30,744 nucleotides of DNA from a virus, in IMG/VR virus record IMGVR_UViG_3300031951_006890, positions 1 through 30,744 of that record. One strand, 5' to 3'. Positions 5,876-29,372 of this stretch are shown one piece after another. Numbering within the stretch: the stretch's first letter is position 1; each line of letters begins with the position of its first letter. The translations under genes were made by a program, and so were the position numbers. The notes beneath the pieces are model-generated. The model was not told the origin of the DNA. It did not search any database and saw only the letters and a program-made list of their open reading frames with translations.

Positions 5876-6099
5876 TTACGCAGCCCGTTATAATCGGCCT
5901 CAGGGATTGGGCAGACCAGGTGATATTGGACTTGGACAATTACAGTCCCCTTAGGAGGCTAGACGATGAAACACAATGGCAAGAGTGGGGCCTGCAGTTC
6001 TGCGTAATCTCGGGGCTGAGTCAAAAGAATCCACCTAACCCTTATGATTTCACCGACTGGCGAACATGGGCGGAGCGTTTCGTACAGGTGGTTTCATGA
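5872..6099 (+). CDS. Small Trp-rich virion-cluster protein, unknown function
   Basis: A 75-aa protein using a GTG start that overlaps the previous stop (GTGA at 5872). No other start fits. It has five Trp residues in two clusters (DDETQWQEWGLQF and YDFTDWRTWAERFVQ) and no membrane helix. Small proteins with a PxPYxFxDWrxWA ending occur next to neck genes in many podovirus-like genomes, with no known function. Its stop overlaps the start of the acyl carrier protein gene (ATGA at 6096), so its expression is probably coupled to it. Confidence 0.65.
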   Translation: MITQPVIIGLRDWADQVILDLDNYSPLRRLDDETQWQEWGLQFCVISGLSQKNPPNPYDFTDWRTWAERFVQVVS

Positions 6100-6386
6100 C
6101 AGACCAAGATTTTCTCATGCTACTGAAAGAAGTAGCTAAAAAAGCAAAACCGTTTCACGACGAACTATCTCCCATCGAAGATCTTGATCAAGATCTTTCT
6201 GAGACAGGCCTTGATAGCCTAGACATGCTCATGTGCACCGTTTATCTATGTGAGGTCTTTGACATAGAAGACGAAAAAAGCCAGGAGATGCAAGTCAAGA
6301 CTCCTCGCGAATGCATGGATTTTTTGAAACAGTGGGGTCGTAGACAACCTCAAAGCTTTGAAGAAGCAGTCAGGATGTTCCGATGA
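6096..6386 (+). CDS. Acyl carrier protein
   Basis: A 96-aa acidic protein. The start is ATG 6096, which overlaps the previous stop; the open frame runs further upstream, but that stretch lies inside the neighbour gene. The phosphopantetheine attachment motif is clear: LSETGLDSLDMLMCTVYLCE, with Ser41 in the GLDSLDM core. The helix pattern before and after (LLKEVAKKAK; CEVFDIEDEKSQEM; TPRECMDFLKQWGR) matches the four-helix ACP fold. It must be converted to the holo form by a 4'-phosphopantetheinyl transferase, which is not in this window and would come from the host or another part of the genome. It is followed by a ketoacyl synthase gene with an ATGA overlap, so the two probably act together. 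The C-terminal extension after residue 80 (QPQSFEEAVRMFR) is longer than in a typical fatty-acid ACP of about 80 residues. Confidence 0.9.
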   Translation: MTDQDFLMLLKEVAKKAKPFHDELSPIEDLDQDLSETGLDSLDMLMCTVYLCEVFDIEDEKSQEMQVKTPRECMDFLKQWGRRQPQSFEEAVRMFR

Positions 6387-7504
6387 GAATCTTTCTGACC
6401 CTAGAGCGCACCGTGTGTACGGAAGATGCTCAACTCTTTGAAGACCATCCTTTTCCGCAAAAGCTGCACTGGTTTCCTGATACCTATTCCAGGGTCAAGA
6501 CAGGCCTTGTCTGCCCGCCCCATGCAGTTGCCGAAAAGATATTGACCCCTGATTTGTTTTCATTGTTGAAACAAACCCAGCCGGGTAAGACGGCCTTCAT
6601 CCTAGCCTCTGGTAACAGCAACTTTGCTGCCGAGGGTCACAAGATGAAGATCGACAACCAGATGAGCTACAACTATAAGATCCTCCCGTTGTCCCTGACC
6701 CAGATCTACGCAGGCCGGGTTGCTGCGCAGTGCGGGGAGATTGATCACACGGCAACTGACGCCACGGCTTGTACCTCTGGCCTGAAGGTCTTGATGGATG
6801 TACAGACCTTGATCAAGTTTTACGGGTTTGACCGGGTCATTGTCCTAGCTGTTGAAGATCAGGTCAACAATATGACCCTTCAGTTCTTTGGGGAAGCTAA
6901 GGCTACCCTGACAGAAAGCATGGCCAAGACCCATCAAGTCGTTCCTAGCGCCTTTGATGAGAAGAACTTCGGGTTCTATATAGGGCAAGGAGCTGCCTTA
7001 GCAGTTTTCGAGTCTGAGGAAGCCGTACGCCGTTCTGGCTTAGAGATCACGGCTGAACTGGTCTCGGCTTACACGGCTACGGAAGTCTTGACGAACACGA
7101 TCGGCCAACGAGAAGACGGTCAGGGGTTTGTCAGGGCCATTAAAGGAACACTTGAATTTTGTCAAATTAACCCAGAACAAATTAAAATCGTGAAGACTCA
7201 TGGAACTGGGACCAAGTCTAATAATGCGGCCGAAAAAACGGCCCTAGATTCCACCTTGAGTGGGTTTGTAGCGACATCGTATAAGCAGCGAATCGGCCAT
7301 ACGATGGGAGCGAGCGGACTCTTAGAGACCCTCTTGCTGTTCAAAGATTTGGAGAAGGGCATTGTGCCTGAGATCCTCAACCGAACAGAGAGGGACGATC
7401 GATACCTCTCACATCCAGTTGAGGCTCCTGACGGCATGGTGCTCAGTTTGAGTGCTGGCATGGGGAACGTCTTCAGCGCCGCACTGTTTAACGTGAGGAT
7501 CTGA
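6383..7504 (+). CDS. Beta-ketoacyl-ACP synthase (KAS, FabF/FabB-like condensing enzyme)
   Basis: A 373-aa protein, shorter than the usual 410 of FabF. The catalytic triad of decarboxylating condensing enzymes is present: Cys130 in DATACTSGLKVL, His273 in KTHGTGTKSNNAAEKTAL, and His306 in KQRIGHTMGASGLLE, with Lys301 five residues before it as in FabF. Such enzymes condense acyl-Cys with malonyl-ACP to a 3-ketoacyl-ACP. Two departures stand out. The N-terminus lacks the usual FabF opening (MxxRRVVVTG type). The C-terminal GFGGTN loop is replaced by LSAGMGN (residues 356-362), putting Ala358 where FabF has the gating Phe400. It overlaps the ACP gene by ATGA and is followed by a virion-cluster gene after 2 nt, so it is expressed with structural genes. 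Bases look like those of its neighbours, so it is not an obvious recent import. Substrate and product are unknown. Confidence 0.88.
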   Translation: MRIFLTLERTVCTEDAQLFEDHPFPQKLHWFPDTYSRVKTGLVCPPHAVAEKILTPDLFSLLKQTQPGKTAFILASGNSNFAAEGHKMKIDNQMSYNYKILPLSLTQIYAGRVAAQCGEIDHTATDATACTSGLKVLMDVQTLIKFYGFDRVIVLAVEDQVNNMTLQFFGEAKATLTESMAKTHQVVPSAFDEKNFGFYIGQGAALAVFESEEAVRRSGLEITAELVSAYTATEVLTNTIGQREDGQGFVRAIKGTLEFCQINPEQIKIVKTHGTGTKSNNAAEKTALDSTLSGFVATSYKQRIGHTMGASGLLETLLLFKDLEKGIVPEILNRTERDDRYLSHPVEAPDGMVLSLSAGMGNVFSAALFNVRI

Positions 7505-20214: not shown

Positions 20215-20242
20215 TCATTCCCTTTGTAGACAGGAGAAGACT

Positions 20243-21100
20243 ATGGCAAATGCCAGAGGTAAACATATTGACAACACTCACCTGAGTATTGATCAAGCCG
20301 AAGAACGCGGCTTCATCCACCGAGACTACATTGCCCACTGCCTTCGGTGGACCCACGTAGCTAAGTGGATGGGAAAACCAGATAACCGCCGAGACTGCAA
20401 GCTACTTGACATCGGTTGCGGCAAGGACGTACCACTGGCCAAGATGCTGATGACTAGCCGCATGGCATCTGATGGGTTAGTCTATATCGGCATCGACTAC
20501 AACAAGCTAGAGATGCCTAAGGCCTTTGAGAACACGAAGTTCAAGCCTACCTTAATTGGCAATGTTGCCTTTCCCGATGTCGAACTGCCCATTGAGAAGT
20601 TTGACGTCATCACGTGCTTTGAGGTGTTAGAACACGTCGAGCCGCTGCACGCCTACAAGATGATCGAGGGGATCCGTGACCGCTTGGCTGAAGATGGCAT
20701 GGCCTTTATCAGCACTCCGGTCTATGACCCCAAGGTAGGGGCTGCAGACAACCACGTCAATGAGATGACTTACCAGGTCATGCAAGTCTTGCTGCACAAG
20801 GCAGGTCTTGAAGTTGACGCCCACTATGGCACTTTTGCCAGCATCAAAGATTACAAGGAGATGATTGAAAGAGATGATTTGGACGCAGTGTTCAATCGCC
20901 TACGTGATTACTACGACAGCAATTACTTGGCGACTATCTTTGCCCCCCTCTATCCACACCGCGCTCGCAACGTGCTGTGGCGAGTCAAGTTGCCCAGGAC
21001 AAACCAGATGTTCGAGGCTCAAAGACTTAGTGACTGCAGCCAGCCACTTTCCAGCAGTGACCAGTGGCAGCCCTTGTTCGACTACCTCGGAGAAGCCTGA
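20243..21100 (+). CDS. SAM-dependent methyltransferase (class I)
   Basis: A 285-aa protein. ATG 20243 follows a strong ribosome binding site (CAGGAGAAGACT); the open frame extends upstream through the terminator and the previous gene, which is not coding in this frame. Rossmann-type methyltransferase motifs are clear: motif I LLDIGCG (54-60), the acidic end of strand 2 in YIGIDYN (81-87, Asp85), and motif IV with the next helix FDVITCFEVLEHVEP (120-134). The best general match is the UbiG/Methyltransf_11-like group acting on small molecules or varied targets. It lacks the NPPY/DPPY motif of DNA N6-adenine or N4-cytosine methylases and the PC motif of C5-cytosine methylases. Its start of a cluster with nucleotide-metabolism genes suggests action on DNA bases or nucleotides, but this is not shown. 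Confidence 0.85.
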   Translation: MANARGKHIDNTHLSIDQAEERGFIHRDYIAHCLRWTHVAKWMGKPDNRRDCKLLDIGCGKDVPLAKMLMTSRMASDGLVYIGIDYNKLEMPKAFENTKFKPTLIGNVAFPDVELPIEKFDVITCFEVLEHVEPLHAYKMIEGIRDRLAEDGMAFISTPVYDPKVGAADNHVNEMTYQVMQVLLHKAGLEVDAHYGTFASIKDYKEMIERDDLDAVFNRLRDYYDSNYLATIFAPLYPHRARNVLWRVKLPRTNQMFEAQRLSDCSQPLSSSDQWQPLFDYLGEA

Positions 21101-21495
21101 TGAGAAACGACCTGTTCAACATGGTGGCCGAGTTTCATCAAAAGTTCGAACTGGCTCCTACCGAAAAGCCTAGTTTTCCGGTTGATGAGATCTGGCAACT
21201 CAAGAATCGGCACATGCAAGAAGAGCTAGACGAGATCAGGGCATCAGCCATCAACGGGGACCTAGAGGAATACTTTGACGGCTTGATCGATCTAGTCTAC
21301 GTGGCTTTGGGAGCTGCCTATCTTTCTGGCTTGCCGTTTGACGAAGGCTTTCGCAGGGTACATGAAGCCAACATGAAAAAAGTTCGCGCTTTATCTGCCA
21401 TGGATAGCAAACGCGGATCGACCTATGATATAGTGAAGCCTCCAGGTTGGACTGCTCCTGAGCTTGCAGACCTGGTCAGAAAGGAGAAAGCATGA
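21100..21495 (+). CDS. MazG-like all-alpha NTP pyrophosphohydrolase
   Basis: A 131-aa protein; ATG 21100 overlaps the previous stop (TGATG). It has the metal-binding pattern of the all-alpha NTP-PPase superfamily (MazG, HisE, dimeric dUTPase): EELDEI with Glu41, Glu42 and Glu45, then the second helix EEYFDGLIDLVYVALGAAYL with Asp60 and Asp64, and later HEANMKKVRA (88-97) with the conserved Asn and Lys. Enzymes of this type split NTPs or dNTPs to the monophosphate and pyrophosphate. The neighbours (nucleotide kinase, ThyA homologue, dCMP deaminase) suggest a dNTP substrate such as dCTP or dUTP, which would feed the ThyA-like and deaminase steps. The T4 dCTPase-dUTPase (gp56) belongs to the same superfamily. 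Substrate cannot be read from sequence. The stop overlaps the next start (ATGA at 21492). Confidence 0.8.
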   Translation: MRNDLFNMVAEFHQKFELAPTEKPSFPVDEIWQLKNRHMQEELDEIRASAINGDLEEYFDGLIDLVYVALGAAYLSGLPFDEGFRRVHEANMKKVRALSAMDSKRGSTYDIVKPPGWTAPELADLVRKEKA

Positions 21496-22502
21496 AAGGT
21501 TTGATCGTCATTGATGGCTGTGATGGGACTGGCAAGACGACTCTTGCTGAAGCCATCTGCAACCGTTTTGATGGCATCTACATGCACAACACGTATCGCT
21601 GGCCTAAGAAGATGCCCTTGTACCACACGGCATCACTTCACCGGGCACTTAAGCTATCTCGTGAAAGGCTTGTAGTCGTCGATCGTTTGTGGATGAGTGA
21701 GGCTATCTACGCCGACGTGTACCGTGGCGGTAGCCCTTGGCCTCACATGGGACGGACCATGGACCGTATCATTCGCCGTTTTTGTGGTTTGTACATCATC
21801 ACGCAATCGCCAGAAGGTCATGACGAGAAGTTTGAGGAATTAAAAAAGAGTCGCAATGAGATGTATGACAACGTCAAGCAGGTCAGGCAAAAATTTGATC
21901 AGCTGTTTCAAGGTGGCTACGAGGGCCACGATCGTGACTATGCCCAGCAACTCTCTGTTCATGGCATGAAGTACAGAAACGACGTCTTGGCTTATCGCTA
22001 TGACGTAGAAGGTCGTGACATGAATTTGTTTTGCGACATGGCAGCTTCTGTCCTTGCCCAGCGCCAGATGCGTCAACTGCCAGAAGCCTTGTCAATGAAG
22101 CATGAAAACTTTGCAGGCTATCTTGCTGAGGCCAAGATCATCTTTGTCGGTGACCAGACGAACAGCAAGCTTCGTGCTATCAATTGGCCTTGGTATGACT
22201 TCGGCAACAGTAGCGAGTTCTTTGCGTCTTGTTTACATGAGATGCTGTTTGATGAACAACAAGCCATCTATGTCAATGCCAATAGTCCTTCTGGTGGGTT
22301 GTACATCAATGATTCATTACGTGCTCAACCGTTCTTAAAGGTCATTGCTTTAGGTGAAGCTGCTTGCAAGACATTGACTCATTATTGCCTTGTGAAGCAC
22401 CAGACGATCATGCATCCGTCGTATGCAAAGAGGTTTAACAAGCGAGATGAGTTTCAATCCCAACTCAAAGGAGCCGTCAATGCAGCGCTCAAACTCAACT
22501 AA
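21492..22502 (+). CDS. P-loop nucleotide kinase fused to a uracil-DNA-glycosylase-like domain
   Basis: A 336-aa two-domain protein. Residues 1-195 form a thymidylate-kinase-like domain with Walker A GCDGTGKTT (9-17) and DRLWMSEAIY (64-73), matching the DR-x3-S nucleotide-binding motif of deoxynucleotide kinases. Residues 212-336 resemble the uracil-DNA glycosylase superfamily: KIIFVGDQTN (215-224) at motif 1, KVIALGEAACKTL (283-295) as the central strand-helix, and TIMHPSYAKRF (305-315) at the HPS motif 2. The usual GExPG motif 1 is changed to VGDQTN, so glycosylase activity is uncertain. Such a fusion could link phosphorylation of a (modified) dNMP with recognition of a base. It starts by an ATGA overlap, and its 3' end overlaps the ThyA-like gene by 23 nt. 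Confidence 0.75.
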   Translation: MKGLIVIDGCDGTGKTTLAEAICNRFDGIYMHNTYRWPKKMPLYHTASLHRALKLSRERLVVVDRLWMSEAIYADVYRGGSPWPHMGRTMDRIIRRFCGLYIITQSPEGHDEKFEELKKSRNEMYDNVKQVRQKFDQLFQGGYEGHDRDYAQQLSVHGMKYRNDVLAYRYDVEGRDMNLFCDMAASVLAQRQMRQLPEALSMKHENFAGYLAEAKIIFVGDQTNSKLRAINWPWYDFGNSSEFFASCLHEMLFDEQQAIYVNANSPSGGLYINDSLRAQPFLKVIALGEAACKTLTHYCLVKHQTIMHPSYAKRFNKRDEFQSQLKGAVNAALKLN

Positions 22503-23280
22503 CCTAGCATGGATCAGCTTGCTCGACATGGTCATGAATGTCGGCGTGGAGTCAAGCCCAAGGGGTAAGAAGACAAAGGAACTGCTTGGCATCAAATCTT
22601 TGATTGACATGACTCAGCCTGTCATCACCATCAAGGAACGAAAGTTAGGCTATAGGTTCATGGCAGCAGAGGCAGCTTGGATCATGTCAGGAGATAACCG
22701 TGTCAATACGATCTCGCCTTACAGCAAGGCCATCAGCAACTTCAGTGATGACGGCATCTTATTCTTTGGGGCTTATGGACCCCCGATACGTGATCAACTG
22801 GGCCATGTGGTCAAGGCGTTATGCGACGATAGAGACTCACGTCAAGCAGTCATCACTATCTGGCGCCCTAACCCACGCCAATCAAAAGATATACCTTGCA
22901 CAATAAGCTGCCAGTTCATGATTCGCAATGACTTGCTGTATTGCTTCATGAACATGAGATCTTCTGATGCCTGGTTAGGTGTTCCGTACGACTGGTTTAA
23001 TTTCAGCATGTTGTCCTACGGCGTGTGCCTGTTGCTAAGAGACAAGGGCATCAATGTGAGGCCCGGACTCTTACATTTTTATGCAGCCAGCCAACACTTG
23101 TACGAGCAAAATTTTGAGCAAGCCTATCACTGTACTGAAGGCGAGATCTTAGGAAACGTCAAGCCAGTGGACCTTGATCAGTTTGTGGGCTATGACGATC
23201 TTGTGTTGCATCTATGGGCAGTGGCAAACGACAAGCAGGTAACAGGCTTCTTAGAGGAGCTGCAAACATGGAAAGGATGA
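22480..23280 (+). CDS. Thymidylate synthase family protein, dCMP-type (hydroxymethylase-like)
   Basis: A 266-aa protein. ATG 22480 has AAAGGAG 7 nt upstream, so I prefer it over earlier in-frame starts. The ThyA fold is clear: Glu64 in AAEAAWIMSGDN, catalytic Cys140 in KDIPCTISCQF, RSSDAWLGVPYDW (160-172), and HLY (206-208) for the sugar. The decisive residue is Asp171 in GVPYDW: true thymidylate synthases have Asn (LGLPFN, Asn177 in E. coli), whereas T4 dCMP hydroxymethylase has Asp179, which accepts cytosine. PCT replaces the usual PCH. So it probably acts on dCMP, making 5-hydroxymethyl-dCMP or a related product from methylenetetrahydrofolate. It lies between the kinase and the dCMP deaminase. 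Ordinary dUMP methylation is not excluded, since the family is diverse. Confidence 0.82.
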   Translation: MQRSNSTNLAWISLLDMVMNVGVESSPRGKKTKELLGIKSLIDMTQPVITIKERKLGYRFMAAEAAWIMSGDNRVNTISPYSKAISNFSDDGILFFGAYGPPIRDQLGHVVKALCDDRDSRQAVITIWRPNPRQSKDIPCTISCQFMIRNDLLYCFMNMRSSDAWLGVPYDWFNFSMLSYGVCLLLRDKGINVRPGLLHFYAASQHLYEQNFEQAYHCTEGEILGNVKPVDLDQFVGYDDLVLHLWAVANDKQVTGFLEELQTWKG

Positions 23281-23717
23281 GCAAAGATGAATATTTTACG
23301 AAAATGGGTCAACTCGTCAGTCGACGGGCTACGTGCGCGAGGCGGTCTGTTGGCTGCGTACTTGTATCTAGTCGTGGGCATGTGCTCGCTACTGGCTATA
23401 ACGGCACTCCTAGCGGCAGTGATCATTGCATCGATTCTCCTTGCCCCGGCGCATCTTATCCGTCAGGCACTGGACTCGAGAGATGCGAAGCGGTACATGC
23501 AGAACAGAATGCCTTACTCCAATGTCGAAACGTCTTCGAAATCGAAACCGCCTATGTAACTGCCATGCCTTGCATGACGTGCATAAAACTCTTACTTAAC
23601 ACTAGCTGCAAGCGGATCATCTACATTGAAGACTATCCGCATGCTGAAGCTAAAGATCTTTGGATACGAAATGGACGAGAACTCCTACAAGCCCCCGCAA
23701 CATTTTCCAGATCTTAG
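23268..23717 (+). CDS. dCMP deaminase
   Basis: A 149-aa protein. ATG 23268 has AGAGGAG about 9 nt upstream; ATG 23277 (overlapping the previous stop as ATGA) is the alternative, three residues shorter. The zinc-dependent deaminase signature is complete: HAE at 77-79 (CEAVHAEQNALLQC) and PCMTC at 101-105, with the proton-carrying Glu79. ATGYNGTPSG (41-50) and CIDSPCP (54-60) match deoxycytidylate deaminases, which often hold a second zinc. The enzyme turns dCMP into dUMP and feeds dTMP synthesis. That it stands next to a ThyA homologue with a dCMP-type active site is notable, since both would draw on dCMP. The 3' end overlaps the polymerase gene by about 47 nt if the polymerase starts at 23671. 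Confidence 0.92.
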   Translation: MERMSKDEYFTKMGQLVSRRATCARRSVGCVLVSSRGHVLATGYNGTPSGSDHCIDSPCPGASYPSGTGLERCEAVHAEQNALLQCRNVFEIETAYVTAMPCMTCIKLLLNTSCKRIIYIEDYPHAEAKDLWIRNGRELLQAPATFSRS

Positions 23718-25533
23718 TCGGGCCAAGAGGATCGCCGTCGATTGCGAGACTAGGGATCCCAACCTGATGACAAAGGGTCCTGGCGGTGTTCGCAAAGACG
23801 GTTACATCGTTGGCGTTTCCGTGGCCACTGACGATGGCTTTGCTGAGTATTACCCGGTGCGCCATGAGGCCGGCGGTAACTTGAATCCTGAGAATGTCTT
23901 TGCATGGCTAAAAGACCAGATGAAGACCGACATCCCAAAACTAGGGGCCAACATGCCATACGACATGGAATGGCTGCTGACAGAAGGAGTCGTCTTAAAT
24001 GGGCCTAAGTACGACATTCAGGTTGCTGAGCCGTTGCTTGATGAAGATCGTGTGACCTATAAGTTAGACGCCTTAGCCGAGTCGTATCTTGGTGAACACA
24101 AAGACGAGAGTCAGATGATCGAGGCTGGTGTCCGTCGTGGCATCAAGCCATCAGACATCAAGGGAAGTCTTTGGCGACTGCATGCCGGCGAAGTTGCAAC
24201 TTACGGCCGTAAGGATGCAGATCTGCCGATCCGGATCTTCGCCCAGCAAGAGGTCTTGCTTCACGACGAGAAGCTATGGGACCTGTTCATGCTAGAAAGC
24301 GAGATCATCGATGTCTTAGTTGCCATGCGCCAGAAGGGCGTGAGGGTCGATGTCGACCTTGCCCACAGGATCAAGGCTCAACTACTTGACGAGCAAGAGC
24401 AGCTGATGGATAAGCTGAAGAAGGTTGCAGACAGGACCATAGACATCTGGTCTGGTGATGATATACAAGCAGCCTGTGATGCTTTGAAGCTGGATTACCC
24501 AAAGACTGAAAAGGGGAATGCAAGTTTTGCGGCTGAGTTTCTTGAAAGTGCTGATCATGAATTTTTCTCCTTAATTTCGAAGGCCAGGAAGCTTGACCGG
24601 GCCGGTGGAGTATTTATCGACAGCAAGATCATTCAGATGGAAAGTGGTGGGCGGATTTACCCGGAATGGCGGCAAGTCCGTGGGGACCGTGGGGGTACTA
24701 AGTCAGGCCGTTTTGCGTCAGCAAACCCAAACATGCAGCAAGTCCCTGCTAGAGACCCGGTCTTGGCTCCAATGATTCGGTCAATCTTCATCCCTGAAGA
24801 TGGCCATCAGTGGGGTGTCTTTGACTACTCGCAGCAAGAACCTCGGGTCACGGTGCACTACGCGTATCTACGAGGGTTTCCTGGGGCAGATACTGCAAGA
24901 AGCAGGTATATCGACAACCCAGATACCGACTACCATCAGTTGGTAGCTGACATGGCAGGTATCAGTCGTAAGAACGCTAAGACGTTAAATCTTGGCCTTG
25001 CCTACGGTATGGGGGCAGCTAAGGCAGCAAGCCAACTTGGACTGGCACCTGCCGAAGCAAAGAAGGTCTACGAGCAGTACCATGAGAACGTGCCCTTCAT
25101 CAAGGCGTTAGGTGAGGAGTGTATGCGAATTGCTACAAACCGCGGCTACGTCAAGACGTTATTGGGGAGGCGGAGGAGGTTCCAGTTATTTGGACCCCCT
25201 AAGTACAGTGCCGGTTTGATACCGCTAAAGAAAGATCAGGCTGAAGATAAGTATGGCTTGCCATTGAAGCGGTACTTTGTTCATAAGGCCATGAATGCCG
25301 TGATCCAAGGGTCATCAGCAGACATGATCAAGCGGGCCATGGTGAACTTATATAAAAAGGGAGAAGTTCCTCATCTGACCATCCATGATGAATTGGATTT
25401 CAGCATTAGGGACCTTGATCATGCAAGGATGATACGGCAGGAGATGTTGACATGCGTGGACTTAGAAGTGCCATTGAAAGTAGACTGCGAACTTGGAGCC
25501 AACTGGGGGACAGCCGTCGAGGTGCAACTATGA
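23671..25533 (+). CDS. Family A DNA polymerase with 3'-5' exonuclease domain
   Basis: About 620 aa from ATG 23671, chosen because phage homologues usually start just before a YxPPxxFPDL segment; ATG 23641 and TTG 23626 are possible. No ribosome binding site clearly decides. The 3'-5' exonuclease is intact: RIAVDCETRDP (Asp24, Glu26), NMPYDMEW (94-101), TYGRKDADL (177-185). Polymerase motif A is FDYSQQEPR (384-392), motif B RKNAKTLNLGLAYGMG (433-448), motif C TIHDELD (570-576). The O-helix residue that is Phe762 in E. coli Pol I is Leu441 here. No 5'-nuclease domain is present, as usual in phages. It is the likely replicative polymerase, and its end overlaps the nuclease gene by ATGA. Confidence 0.95.
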   Translation: MDENSYKPPQHFPDLSRAKRIAVDCETRDPNLMTKGPGGVRKDGYIVGVSVATDDGFAEYYPVRHEAGGNLNPENVFAWLKDQMKTDIPKLGANMPYDMEWLLTEGVVLNGPKYDIQVAEPLLDEDRVTYKLDALAESYLGEHKDESQMIEAGVRRGIKPSDIKGSLWRLHAGEVATYGRKDADLPIRIFAQQEVLLHDEKLWDLFMLESEIIDVLVAMRQKGVRVDVDLAHRIKAQLLDEQEQLMDKLKKVADRTIDIWSGDDIQAACDALKLDYPKTEKGNASFAAEFLESADHEFFSLISKARKLDRAGGVFIDSKIIQMESGGRIYPEWRQVRGDRGGTKSGRFASANPNMQQVPARDPVLAPMIRSIFIPEDGHQWGVFDYSQQEPRVTVHYAYLRGFPGADTARSRYIDNPDTDYHQLVADMAGISRKNAKTLNLGLAYGMGAAKAASQLGLAPAEAKKVYEQYHENVPFIKALGEECMRIATNRGYVKTLLGRRRRFQLFGPPKYSAGLIPLKKDQAEDKYGLPLKRYFVHKAMNAVIQGSSADMIKRAMVNLYKKGEVPHLTIHDELDFSIRDLDHARMIRQEMLTCVDLEVPLKVDCELGANWGTAVEVQL

Positions 25534-27567: not shown

Positions 27568-27798
27568 ATGGACATCAGGCAATTGTTTCCTACATTAGGA
27601 GCTGGCGCTTCTACTTCAGACGGCAAGAGTCCCAGTGCCACTAAAAAAGGCCCTGGGAGGAAGGCTGCTCATGGACACAAGAAGATCAAACGCAAGGGTC
27701 CTAAGCGGTACGTGAAGAAGGTTGCCACAAAGGTAGGTCAGTCTCAGACTGATAACGTCACAAATAAACCTTTGAAGGCAGCCACAAGAGGCAGTTGA
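27568..27798 (+). CDS. Small basic protein, unknown function
   Basis: A 76-aa protein with TAGGAAACAGT before the ATG, 8 nt after the previous stop. After a short start (MDIRQLFPTLG) it is very rich in Lys, Arg, Gly and Ser (KKGPGRKAAHGHKKIKRKGP), with no predicted fold. Such tails bind nucleic acid non-specifically, so a DNA- or RNA-binding role is possible. It is the last gene before a strong terminator. Codon pattern and clean spacing support a real gene. Confidence 0.65.
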   Translation: MDIRQLFPTLGAGASTSDGKSPSATKKGPGRKAAHGHKKIKRKGPKRYVKKVATKVGQSQTDNVTNKPLKAATRGS

Positions 27799-27804
27799 CG
27801 ACCT

Positions 27805-27828
27805 CCGGGGGTTCCGGCCCCCGGTTTT
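27805..27828 (+). terminator. Strong intrinsic terminator
   Basis: CCGGGGG (27805-27811) pairs perfectly with CCCCCGG (27818-27824) around a TTCCGG loop and is followed by TTTTCT. This is a textbook Rho-independent terminator placed 6 nt after the stop of the small basic protein gene, dividing the replication block into two transcription units. Confidence 0.88.
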
Positions 27829-27848
27829 CTACTACAAGAAAGAAAGCT

Positions 27849-29372
27849 ATGCTTGCACAACGATTCATGGCCTTGTTTGCTGGGCACTCTGGAGCCTATG
27901 GTACTTATGACATTGATGGCAAGAATACCGGTCTAAAGGTTCAGGGAACAGCCGTCACCAAACGTGCCCCTGTCACCGAGGAACTGTGGGAATCTCATCT
28001 CTCAGGAGCCAAGGGAATCGGTATTGTGCCCATCAGGGAGGACAACACATGCCTCTTTGGTGCGATTGACATTGACGAATACAAGAACTACGACTTGAAA
28101 GAAGCCGTTGAAGCCTGTAAGAAAGCCAAGGCTCCGGTAGTCGTCTGCCGCAGCAAGTCGGGCGGTGCCCACATCTATATGTTCTTCTCAGAACCCGTGC
28201 CAGCTGCCGACGTCAAGCGTAAGCTAGCCGAGTTGGCATCGGTCTTGGGGCATGCAACCAGTGAGATCTTCCCGAAGCAAGACACCGTCTTGACAGAACG
28301 AGGAGATGTTGGTAACTGGATCAACATGCCGTACTTTGAAGGCACGTCCACAAGCCGGTATGGCGTTGCCGAGTCAGGGGCTCCAATGACTCCCGAGCAG
28401 TTTTTAGATTTTGCAGAACCCTTGAAGATGACAAGGGCTCAGTTCATTAAGCTGAAGTTTAATGAATCAAAGACTAGACGTAAGCAATTTAAGGATGCTC
28501 CCCCATGCCTTGAGAAGCTGTCGCAGACCGGCTTTCCAGAAGGTACCCGCAACAACGGCTTGTTCAATCTATGTGTCCTTGCAAAGAAGATGCGGCCAGA
28601 CGATTGGCAGCCCTTGGTCATGCAGATGAACATCGACGTCATGGATCCGCCGCTGCCAGAGTCTGAGGTGATGGGGGTCATGAACTCTATGCAGACCAGT
28701 GACTATCAGTACACGTGCAGTAGGCCTCCAATCCGCCAGCACTGCAACGCTGGTATGTGCCGCATGAGAAAGTACGGGGTCGGTATCCAGCAAGGGGCTC
28801 CAAGGCTTTCAAGTCTTAGCAAGTACAACACGGATCCTCCCATCTGGTTTCTTGACATGGACAATGGCATGCGGCTTTCCTTGTCTACCGAAGACCTGCA
28901 AAATCAATCGGGCTTCCAGAAGAGATGCATGGAGACCATGAACTACATGCCACAGAAGATGAACCTGACACAGTGGAGTCAGATGATTCAGGCCTTGCTG
29001 CAAGACGTAGTCATCATCGAGGCACCTGAAGACTCGACACCGAAGGGTCAGTTCATTGAGCTGCTAGAGCGGTTCTGTACTGGTAAGGCACAAGCCAAGC
29101 ATCTTGACGAGATCTTGCTAGGTAAACCATTCCATGACCAGGATGAGAACCGCCATCTGTTTAGGTTGGCAGACTTCATGAACTTCCTTGACAAGCAGAA
29201 GTTCAAGGAGTTCAAGCTGAACCAGATCAGTAGTGCCATCAGAGACTACGGTGGAGAGACGCATACATACCGCCTGAATGGTAAGCGGGCCACGGTGTGG
29301 TCAATCCCGGCATTCGCCTTCCAAGACAAGGGTCATCAGACTCCTGACTTTGGTGGGGGCAGCTTGATATGA
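27849..29372 (+). CDS. Archaeo-eukaryotic primase superfamily protein (TOTE-type AEP)
   Basis: A 507-aa protein. I chose ATG 27849; a TTG at 27795 would place its leader across the terminator. The AEP core shows CLFGAIDIDEY with catalytic Asp74 and Asp76, CRSKSGGAHIYMFFSEPV (100-117) with His108, and SEIFPKQ (138-144) with GNWINMPYF (155-163). This matches the AEP primase domain found in TOTE conflict systems and many phages. After it come PCLEKLSQTGFPEGTRNNGL (219-238) and a Cys set C290, C299, C304 (YTCSRPPIRQHCNAGMCRM), a likely zinc-binding module. The C-terminal 190 residues are helical without a helicase motif. It probably makes primers for the family A polymerase. The next gene overlaps by ATGA. 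Confidence 0.85.
   Translation: MLAQRFMALFAGHSGAYGTYDIDGKNTGLKVQGTAVTKRAPVTEELWESHLSGAKGIGIVPIREDNTCLFGAIDIDEYKNYDLKEAVEACKKAKAPVVVCRSKSGGAHIYMFFSEPVPAADVKRKLAELASVLGHATSEIFPKQDTVLTERGDVGNWINMPYFEGTSTSRYGVAESGAPMTPEQFLDFAEPLKMTRAQFIKLKFNESKTRRKQFKDAPPCLEKLSQTGFPEGTRNNGLFNLCVLAKKMRPDDWQPLVMQMNIDVMDPPLPESEVMGVMNSMQTSDYQYTCSRPPIRQHCNAGMCRMRKYGVGIQQGAPRLSSLSKYNTDPPIWFLDMDNGMRLSLSTEDLQNQSGFQKRCMETMNYMPQKMNLTQWSQMIQALLQDVVIIEAPEDSTPKGQFIELLERFCTGKAQAKHLDEILLGKPFHDQDENRHLFRLADFMNFLDKQKFKEFKLNQISSAIRDYGGETHTYRLNGKRATVWSIPAFAFQDKGHQTPDFGGGSLI

Follow-up and report, generated by a model that had tools for sequence, protein, structure and literature searches.

A five-gene phage cassette with a predicted dCMP 5-hydroxymethylase and a methyltransferase that may act on 5-hydroxymethylcytosine

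Position 177 (E. coli ThyA numbering, used throughout) is an Asn/Asp switch in phage synthases, and in phage metagenomes it has been tied to modified cytosine (Yang et al. 2021, PMC8670742). According to work cited in that article, D177 alone turns synthases of the E. coli type towards dCMP methylation. In the dCMP hydroxymethylase of phage T4 (gp42), the Asp that precedes the catalytic Cys by three residues activates the water for the hydroxymethyl group; changing it to Asn abolishes activity, and a Ser94 to Ala variant retains about a quarter (PMC6400193). In the CMP hydroxymethylase MilA, Ala replaces the Ser that accompanies deoxyribose substrates (PMC5175136). Phage AXL1 has been tied by its authors to the 5-methylcytosine (5mC) phage Xp12 (PMC9206674), and Stenotrophomonas phage DLP4 belongs to the same group. 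The DNA of Stenotrophomonas phage AXL3 resists all 35 of the restriction enzymes with G/C in their sites, and is cut by 2 of the 37, those with A/T-only sites, a pattern compatible with modification of either G or C. In the article on AXL3 the synthase gp28 is taken to make dTMP, and no explanation of the modification is offered (PMC7504290).

The DNA analysed here, which we call the window, is a stretch of 30,744 nucleotides from a virus. It contains a cassette of five genes, the fourth of which is the D177 enzyme, with a DNA polymerase gene immediately after:

20243-21100, forward strand: SAM-dependent methyltransferase, HEN1/UbiG-like, cassette gene 1 (PF13489, E 4.8e-13)
21100-21495, forward strand: MazG-like NTP pyrophosphohydrolase with a predicted dCTPase role (PF01503, E 5.8e-14; phrog_671)
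21492-22502, forward strand: dNMP-kinase-like protein with a C-terminal uracil-DNA-glycosylase-fold domain (thymidylate kinase models)
22480-23280, forward strand: predicted dCMP 5-hydroxymethylase of the thymidylate-synthase fold, 266 residues (PF00303, E 2.3e-20)
23268-23717, forward strand: dCMP deaminase (PF00383, E 2.2e-20; phrog_174, E 1.8e-36)
23626-25533, forward strand: family A DNA polymerase, directly 3' of the cassette, start codon provisional (PF00476, E 9.2e-58)

The gene of the window enzyme (22480-23280) has a ribosome-binding-like AAAGGAG 5' of its ATG, and overlaps its neighbours on both sides, upstream the kinase gene and downstream the deaminase gene. The kinase-like protein was modelled by AF2 with a pLDDT of 90.5, and Foldseek matches it to thymidylate kinases and, through its C-terminal domain, to uracil-DNA glycosylases such as UdgX.

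Most of the related viral contigs have these five genes in an identical order, as has the cultured phage AXL3 (gp31-gp27), where the D177 enzyme is 44% and the methyltransferase 33% identical to that of the window. AXL3 differs in belonging to another phage family, in having its own ThyX (gp50), and in that its polymerase gene is distant. The annotation of the cultured phage PW916 gives four of the five cassette genes, the kinase being unlisted, and Pelagibacter phage HTVC119P has the D177 enzyme and a short kinase without the remaining cassette genes. The synthases found in phages by MetaGPA (PMC8670742) share with the window enzyme Asp177, a change at position 147, and the co-occurring PF01503 pyrophosphohydrolase and PF00383 deaminase. 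The window cassette differs in being headed by a SAM methyltransferase, which the main text of that article does not mention.

Some variation in gene arrangement was also seen. The Manatee Spring phage MW202510 has a short kinase, with a G:T/U glycosylase-like protein encoded by a gene of its own. In four loci (L186, L188, L189 and L180) the order is altered, the D177 synthase preceding the methyltransferase by about 2.4 kb rather than following it. Three others (L067, L068 and L070) have a C5-cytosine-DNA-methylase-like protein (PF00145) upstream of the pyrophosphohydrolase, and in L068 this protein continues in-frame into the SAM methyltransferase.

The window enzyme is a member of the thymidylate synthase superfamily, both by its profile match (73.3 bits against PF00303, Thymidylat_synt, for which the curated cut-off is 24.3) and by its catalytic Cys, Glu and HxY. 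The residues that bear on its substrate and product are as follows:

22888-22890, forward strand: Asp137, equivalent to ThyA Leu143 and to Asp145 of T4 dCMP hydroxymethylase, the water-activating residue
22897-22902, forward strand: catalytic Cys140 (22897-22899) and Thr141, equivalent to ThyA Cys146-His147
22990-22992, forward strand, codon GAC: Asp171, equivalent to ThyA position 177, the cytosine-reading residue

An earlier note on this DNA had placed Asp171 at the position of the ThyA Asn177, and had equated it with Asp179 of the T4 enzyme. Both assignments hold: in the motif MRSSD163AWLGVPYD171WFNF the residue lies eight places past the Asp163 of RSSD, and the alignments with E. coli ThyA and with T4 agree. 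The catalytic residues, said there to be kept, are indeed all present, as Cys140, Glu64 (22669-22671) and His206/Tyr208 (HLY). The note had not remarked on two further changes of the hydroxymethylase kind, Leu143 to Asp137 and His147 to Thr141. The window enzyme thus has Asp, Asp and Thr at positions 177, 143 and 147 and is without the C-terminal tail of thymidylate synthases, where a dUMP-specific ThyA would have Asn177, Leu143, His147 and the tail.

All of these features are shared with T4 gp42: Asp177, Asp143, Thr147, the catalytic Cys, Glu and HxY, and the missing TS-type C-terminal end. The two are very distant, however, and the window enzyme has Gly at the Ser94 position. The gp42 signature at this point is Ser94-x-Tyr96, with Ser or Thr two residues before the Tyr, whereas the window enzyme and nearly all of its relatives have Gly-Ala-Tyr; we therefore liken it to gp42 in its working, but do not file it in the same family. 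The best relatives with a solved structure, by sequence, are those of the CMP hydroxymethylase MilA (PDB 5b6d; E 5e-24), which has Asp, Asp and Thr at the same three positions. The window enzyme differs from MilA in keeping the Ser (MRSSD), and therefore fits dCMP rather than CMP as substrate. The gene probably encodes an enzyme of the thymidylate-synthase fold that hydroxymethylates dCMP at C5.

Asp at 177 and Asp at 143 occur in all the relatives found (viral contigs, AXL3, HTVC119P and two Manatee Spring phages), and position 147 is Thr in nearly all and Ser in a few. Since the Asp is present in every relative found for the clade, Asp171 is not a matter of chance. The relatives were searched with six seed patterns, one of which contained Asp171 itself, and the cleaner count is therefore that from a search with the neighbouring methyltransferase as its sole seed, in which all 65 readable thymidylate-synthase homologues have Asp177. 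In a maximum-likelihood tree the window enzyme falls inside a clade of 37 rows, all D177, with branch support of 96/91. Canonical ThyA is separate from this clade (support 100/100), and the N177 enzymes of the dUMP-hydroxymethylase type, from Bacillus phage SP8, Rhodoferax phage P26218 and Glutamicibacter phage Montesquieu, also lie outside it. Some of the long branches, among them T4 gp42 and MilA, are of unsure placement, and the tree is therefore silent on a single origin of D177. The earlier note had proposed an enzyme of cytosine nucleotides, a reading that would have failed had the protein grouped with dUMP-specific synthases sharing the Asp; its position in a D177 clade of its own, apart from ThyA, and the published Asn/Asp switch support that reading. 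In this respect the D177 synthase itself is a further case of the published rule that links Asp177 to modified cytosine (PMC8670742).

The gene could be read as an ordinary dUMP-specific thymidylate synthase in which the Asp is incidental. Both PF00303 and PHROGs annotate it as thymidylate synthase, and the neighbouring dCMP deaminase could supply dUMP, as the AXL3 authors have it. We consider this very unlikely. D177, D143 and T147 are conserved together across a clade that stands apart from ThyA, and the best solved relatives are CMP hydroxymethylases. Moreover, two of the phage contigs (G028 and G033, loci L037 and L045) carry a canonical ThyA in addition to the D177 gene, with Asn177, His147 and a C-terminus of VSV or VAV, and G035 has ThyX beside the D177 gene, as does AXL3. 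In these phages the D177 gene is therefore not needed for thymidylate. The window is contained in full, at 100% identity, in a contig of 55.6 kb, and no ThyX, second ThyA or dihydrofolate reductase (DHFR) was found there.

With a dCMP enzyme preferred to a thymidylate synthase, the product has next to be considered. Reductive methylation consumes tetrahydrofolate and hence needs DHFR, while hydroxymethylation has no such need. A dCMP 5-methylase of the Xp12 kind would use the hydride of tetrahydrofolate to reduce the exocyclic methylene, giving 5-methyl-dCMP and fully 5mC DNA. In favour of such an enzyme, D177 alone shifts E. coli-type synthases to dCMP methylation in the work cited by PMC8670742, and the Xp12 kin DLP4 and AXL1 have D177, a pyrophosphohydrolase and a dCMP deaminase in similar order. 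Their synthases differ, however, in having Asn at 143, Pro at 147 and an adjoining DHFR gene. The marks of the Xp12 type, as defined from DLP4, are a residue other than Asp at 143 and an adjacent DHFR, and the window enzyme shows neither: it keeps the water-activating Asp of the T4 hydroxymethylase as Asp137, and DHFR was found in none of the 50 records of its group. The carbamoyltransferase partners of the clade, described next, also argue against a methylase, which we regard as unlikely.

In two members of the clade, from loci L056 and L057, the partner is a carbamoyltransferase, assigned here by family match; a 5hmC carbamoyltransferase of the same family has been proven (PMC8670742). A carbamoyltransferase needs a hydroxyl, and its partnership with D177 enzymes therefore favours 5-hydroxymethyl-dCMP. 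Of the two products that the earlier note had entertained, 5-hydroxymethyl- and 5-methyl-dCMP, the sequence evidence thus favours the former as the likely product, on the basis of Asp137, the lack of DHFR and the carbamoyltransferase partners. Among phage genes that are all annotated as thymidylate synthase, this suggests a sequence rule by which hydroxymethylases would be told from methylases: Asp against Asn three residues before the Cys, and DHFR absent against present.

In L056 and L057 the carbamoyltransferase is at the head of the cassette, exactly in the slot of the methyltransferase and directly before the pyrophosphohydrolase, as a further likeness to the MetaGPA phages and their 5hmC carbamoyltransferase. 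A scan seeded with the carbamoyltransferase gave 23 loci, with Asp177 in 19 of the 21 that have a synthase homologue and a methyltransferase in none of the 23, and many of these synthase homologues share the order of the cassette. Over all the loci fetched, some of which come from the same contigs and are not independent, the methyltransferase was found in 143, the carbamoyltransferase in 25 and both together in 0. The carbamoyltransferase was not found in the window phage; it is present in 2 of the 50 records of the group, neither of which has the methyltransferase.

The methyltransferase is in turn closely linked to the D177 enzyme. The cassette head gene (METHYLTRANSFERASE) is matched by only 5 of 50,697 phage records, and all five have the D177 gene. 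An early cluster count, by which 63 of 77 loci had the methyltransferase, was set aside: L056, L067 and L070 proved to be false joins, and for this reason co-occurrence was recounted by tblastn. On the recount, a synthase is nearby in 65 of 83 methyltransferase loci. Of the 18 without, 16 extend no more than about 1.6 kb downstream; L178 and L026, the latter with the synthase, belong to opposite ends of one contig; and in L086 the methyltransferase is apparently without a partner, but the same genome has the D177 enzyme elsewhere. The two are therefore linked in every resolvable case. L086 is a contig from a Methylococcaceae MAG, and many of its small ORFs near the methyltransferase relative start in near-identical leaders of the MKHLRQYIRQ or MKITKRQLKRIIREE kind; it may be a large virus whose proteins have an N-terminal tag in common.

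The profile matches of the methyltransferase are to HEN1 and UbiG, both O-methyltransferases. In an alignment of 20 relatives E128, E131, H132, H172 and E175 are invariant (numbering counts from base 20240, with Met as 2), and hhalign places Glu128, Glu131, His132 and His172 on the four metal ligands of HEN1, as named in PMC10781085. The quartet ExxEH...H of HEN1 is thus present in the cassette enzyme, but the ExxEH part is common in such methyltransferases and formed part of the scan seed, so that it does not discriminate; its use as stand-alone proof of metal-dependent O-methylation was dropped. The NHxxE part is absent from 62 remote relatives. The AF2 model (pLDDT 86) has the fold of class I SAM methyltransferases in general, and fold comparison does not separate substrates, since Z is 15-18 for each of CmoM, ChlM, UbiG and HEN1.

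A class I SAM enzyme within a DNA-modification cassette might be a conventional N6-adenine, N4-cytosine or C5-cytosine DNA methyltransferase. This is quite unlikely here: the alignment has FEVLEH at the motif IV position, and neither (D/N/S)PP(Y/F) nor PC, and none of the Pfam DNA-methylase models matches the protein. A more serious alternative is that 5hmC is the final base, and that the methyltransferase acts elsewhere, on an RNA 3'-end, a tRNA or a small molecule. HEN1 and several of the top fold matches are RNA methyltransferases, and the fold is blind to substrate. Against such a role, the cassette has no neighbouring gene for the RNA-repair partner Pnkp, whereas of the four plasmid HEN1 genes that were fetched three have one alongside; the methyltransferase is linked to D177 in all resolvable cases; and it shares a slot with the carbamoyltransferase, the two never occurring together. 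We hold it to be plausible, if somewhat doubtful.

On the basis of the slot exchange, the strict linkage and the kinship with O-methyltransferases, we tentatively suggest that the methyltransferase may O-methylate 5hmC, in DNA or as the nucleotide, to give 5-methoxymethylcytosine. The cassette would then work as follows. The pyrophosphohydrolase would empty the dCTP pool to dCMP. Asp171 would hold the cytosine ring while Cys140 attacks C6, with methylene-tetrahydrofolate as the carbon donor, and Asp137 would bring in water to give 5-hydroxymethyl-dCMP. This would be raised to the triphosphate by the kinase together with host enzymes, and the adjacent DNA polymerase would insert the hydroxymethylated nucleotide in place of cytosine. 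The deaminase would supply dUMP for thymidylate. Finally, the hydroxymethyl group would be tailored by the SAM methyltransferase, for which O-methylation is the simplest route. By analogy with its relatives, we infer that the window phage would have modified cytosine in its DNA. Among ten proteins scanned in the other half of the 55.6 kb contig there is no T4-like glycosyltransferase.

Two other regions of the window may be noted. At 6066-7504, amid structural genes, a beta-ketoacyl synthase (PF02801, E 1.6e-16; PF00109, E 5.5e-08) comes after a probable acyl carrier protein (weak match to PF00550, E 0.0015); such genes of the fatty-acid or polyketide type are unusual for a phage. The region 27795-29372 encodes a primase whose archaeo-eukaryotic primase domain is of the TOTE type (PF22548, E 3.6e-22).

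In the open-licence articles searched, we found no report of 5-methoxymethylcytosine in a phage, nor of a methyltransferase-headed cassette, of the mutual exclusion between it and the version with a carbamoyltransferase, or of a link to the resistance of AXL3, and it is these last three that are new here. The full proposal is that the cassette makes 5-methoxymethylcytosine by way of a HEN1-like, metal-dependent O-methyltransferase, that its head gene is exchangeable, and that AXL3 and PW916 carry the base; as a whole this is possible, and is put forward tentatively. If true, the head gene, in its methyltransferase or its carbamoyltransferase branch, would set the final decoration of a 5hmC operon. 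The cassette is a mobile one that occurs in many environmental phages, and has a second, unstudied predicted tailoring enzyme in the place of the carbamoyltransferase. This provides a concrete prediction as to why the DNA of AXL3 resists restriction, and methyltransferase decoration of cytosine may shield the phage DNA. The base, if real, would be an addition to the known phage DNA modifications, and an enzyme that acts on 5hmC would be useful in sequencing chemistry.
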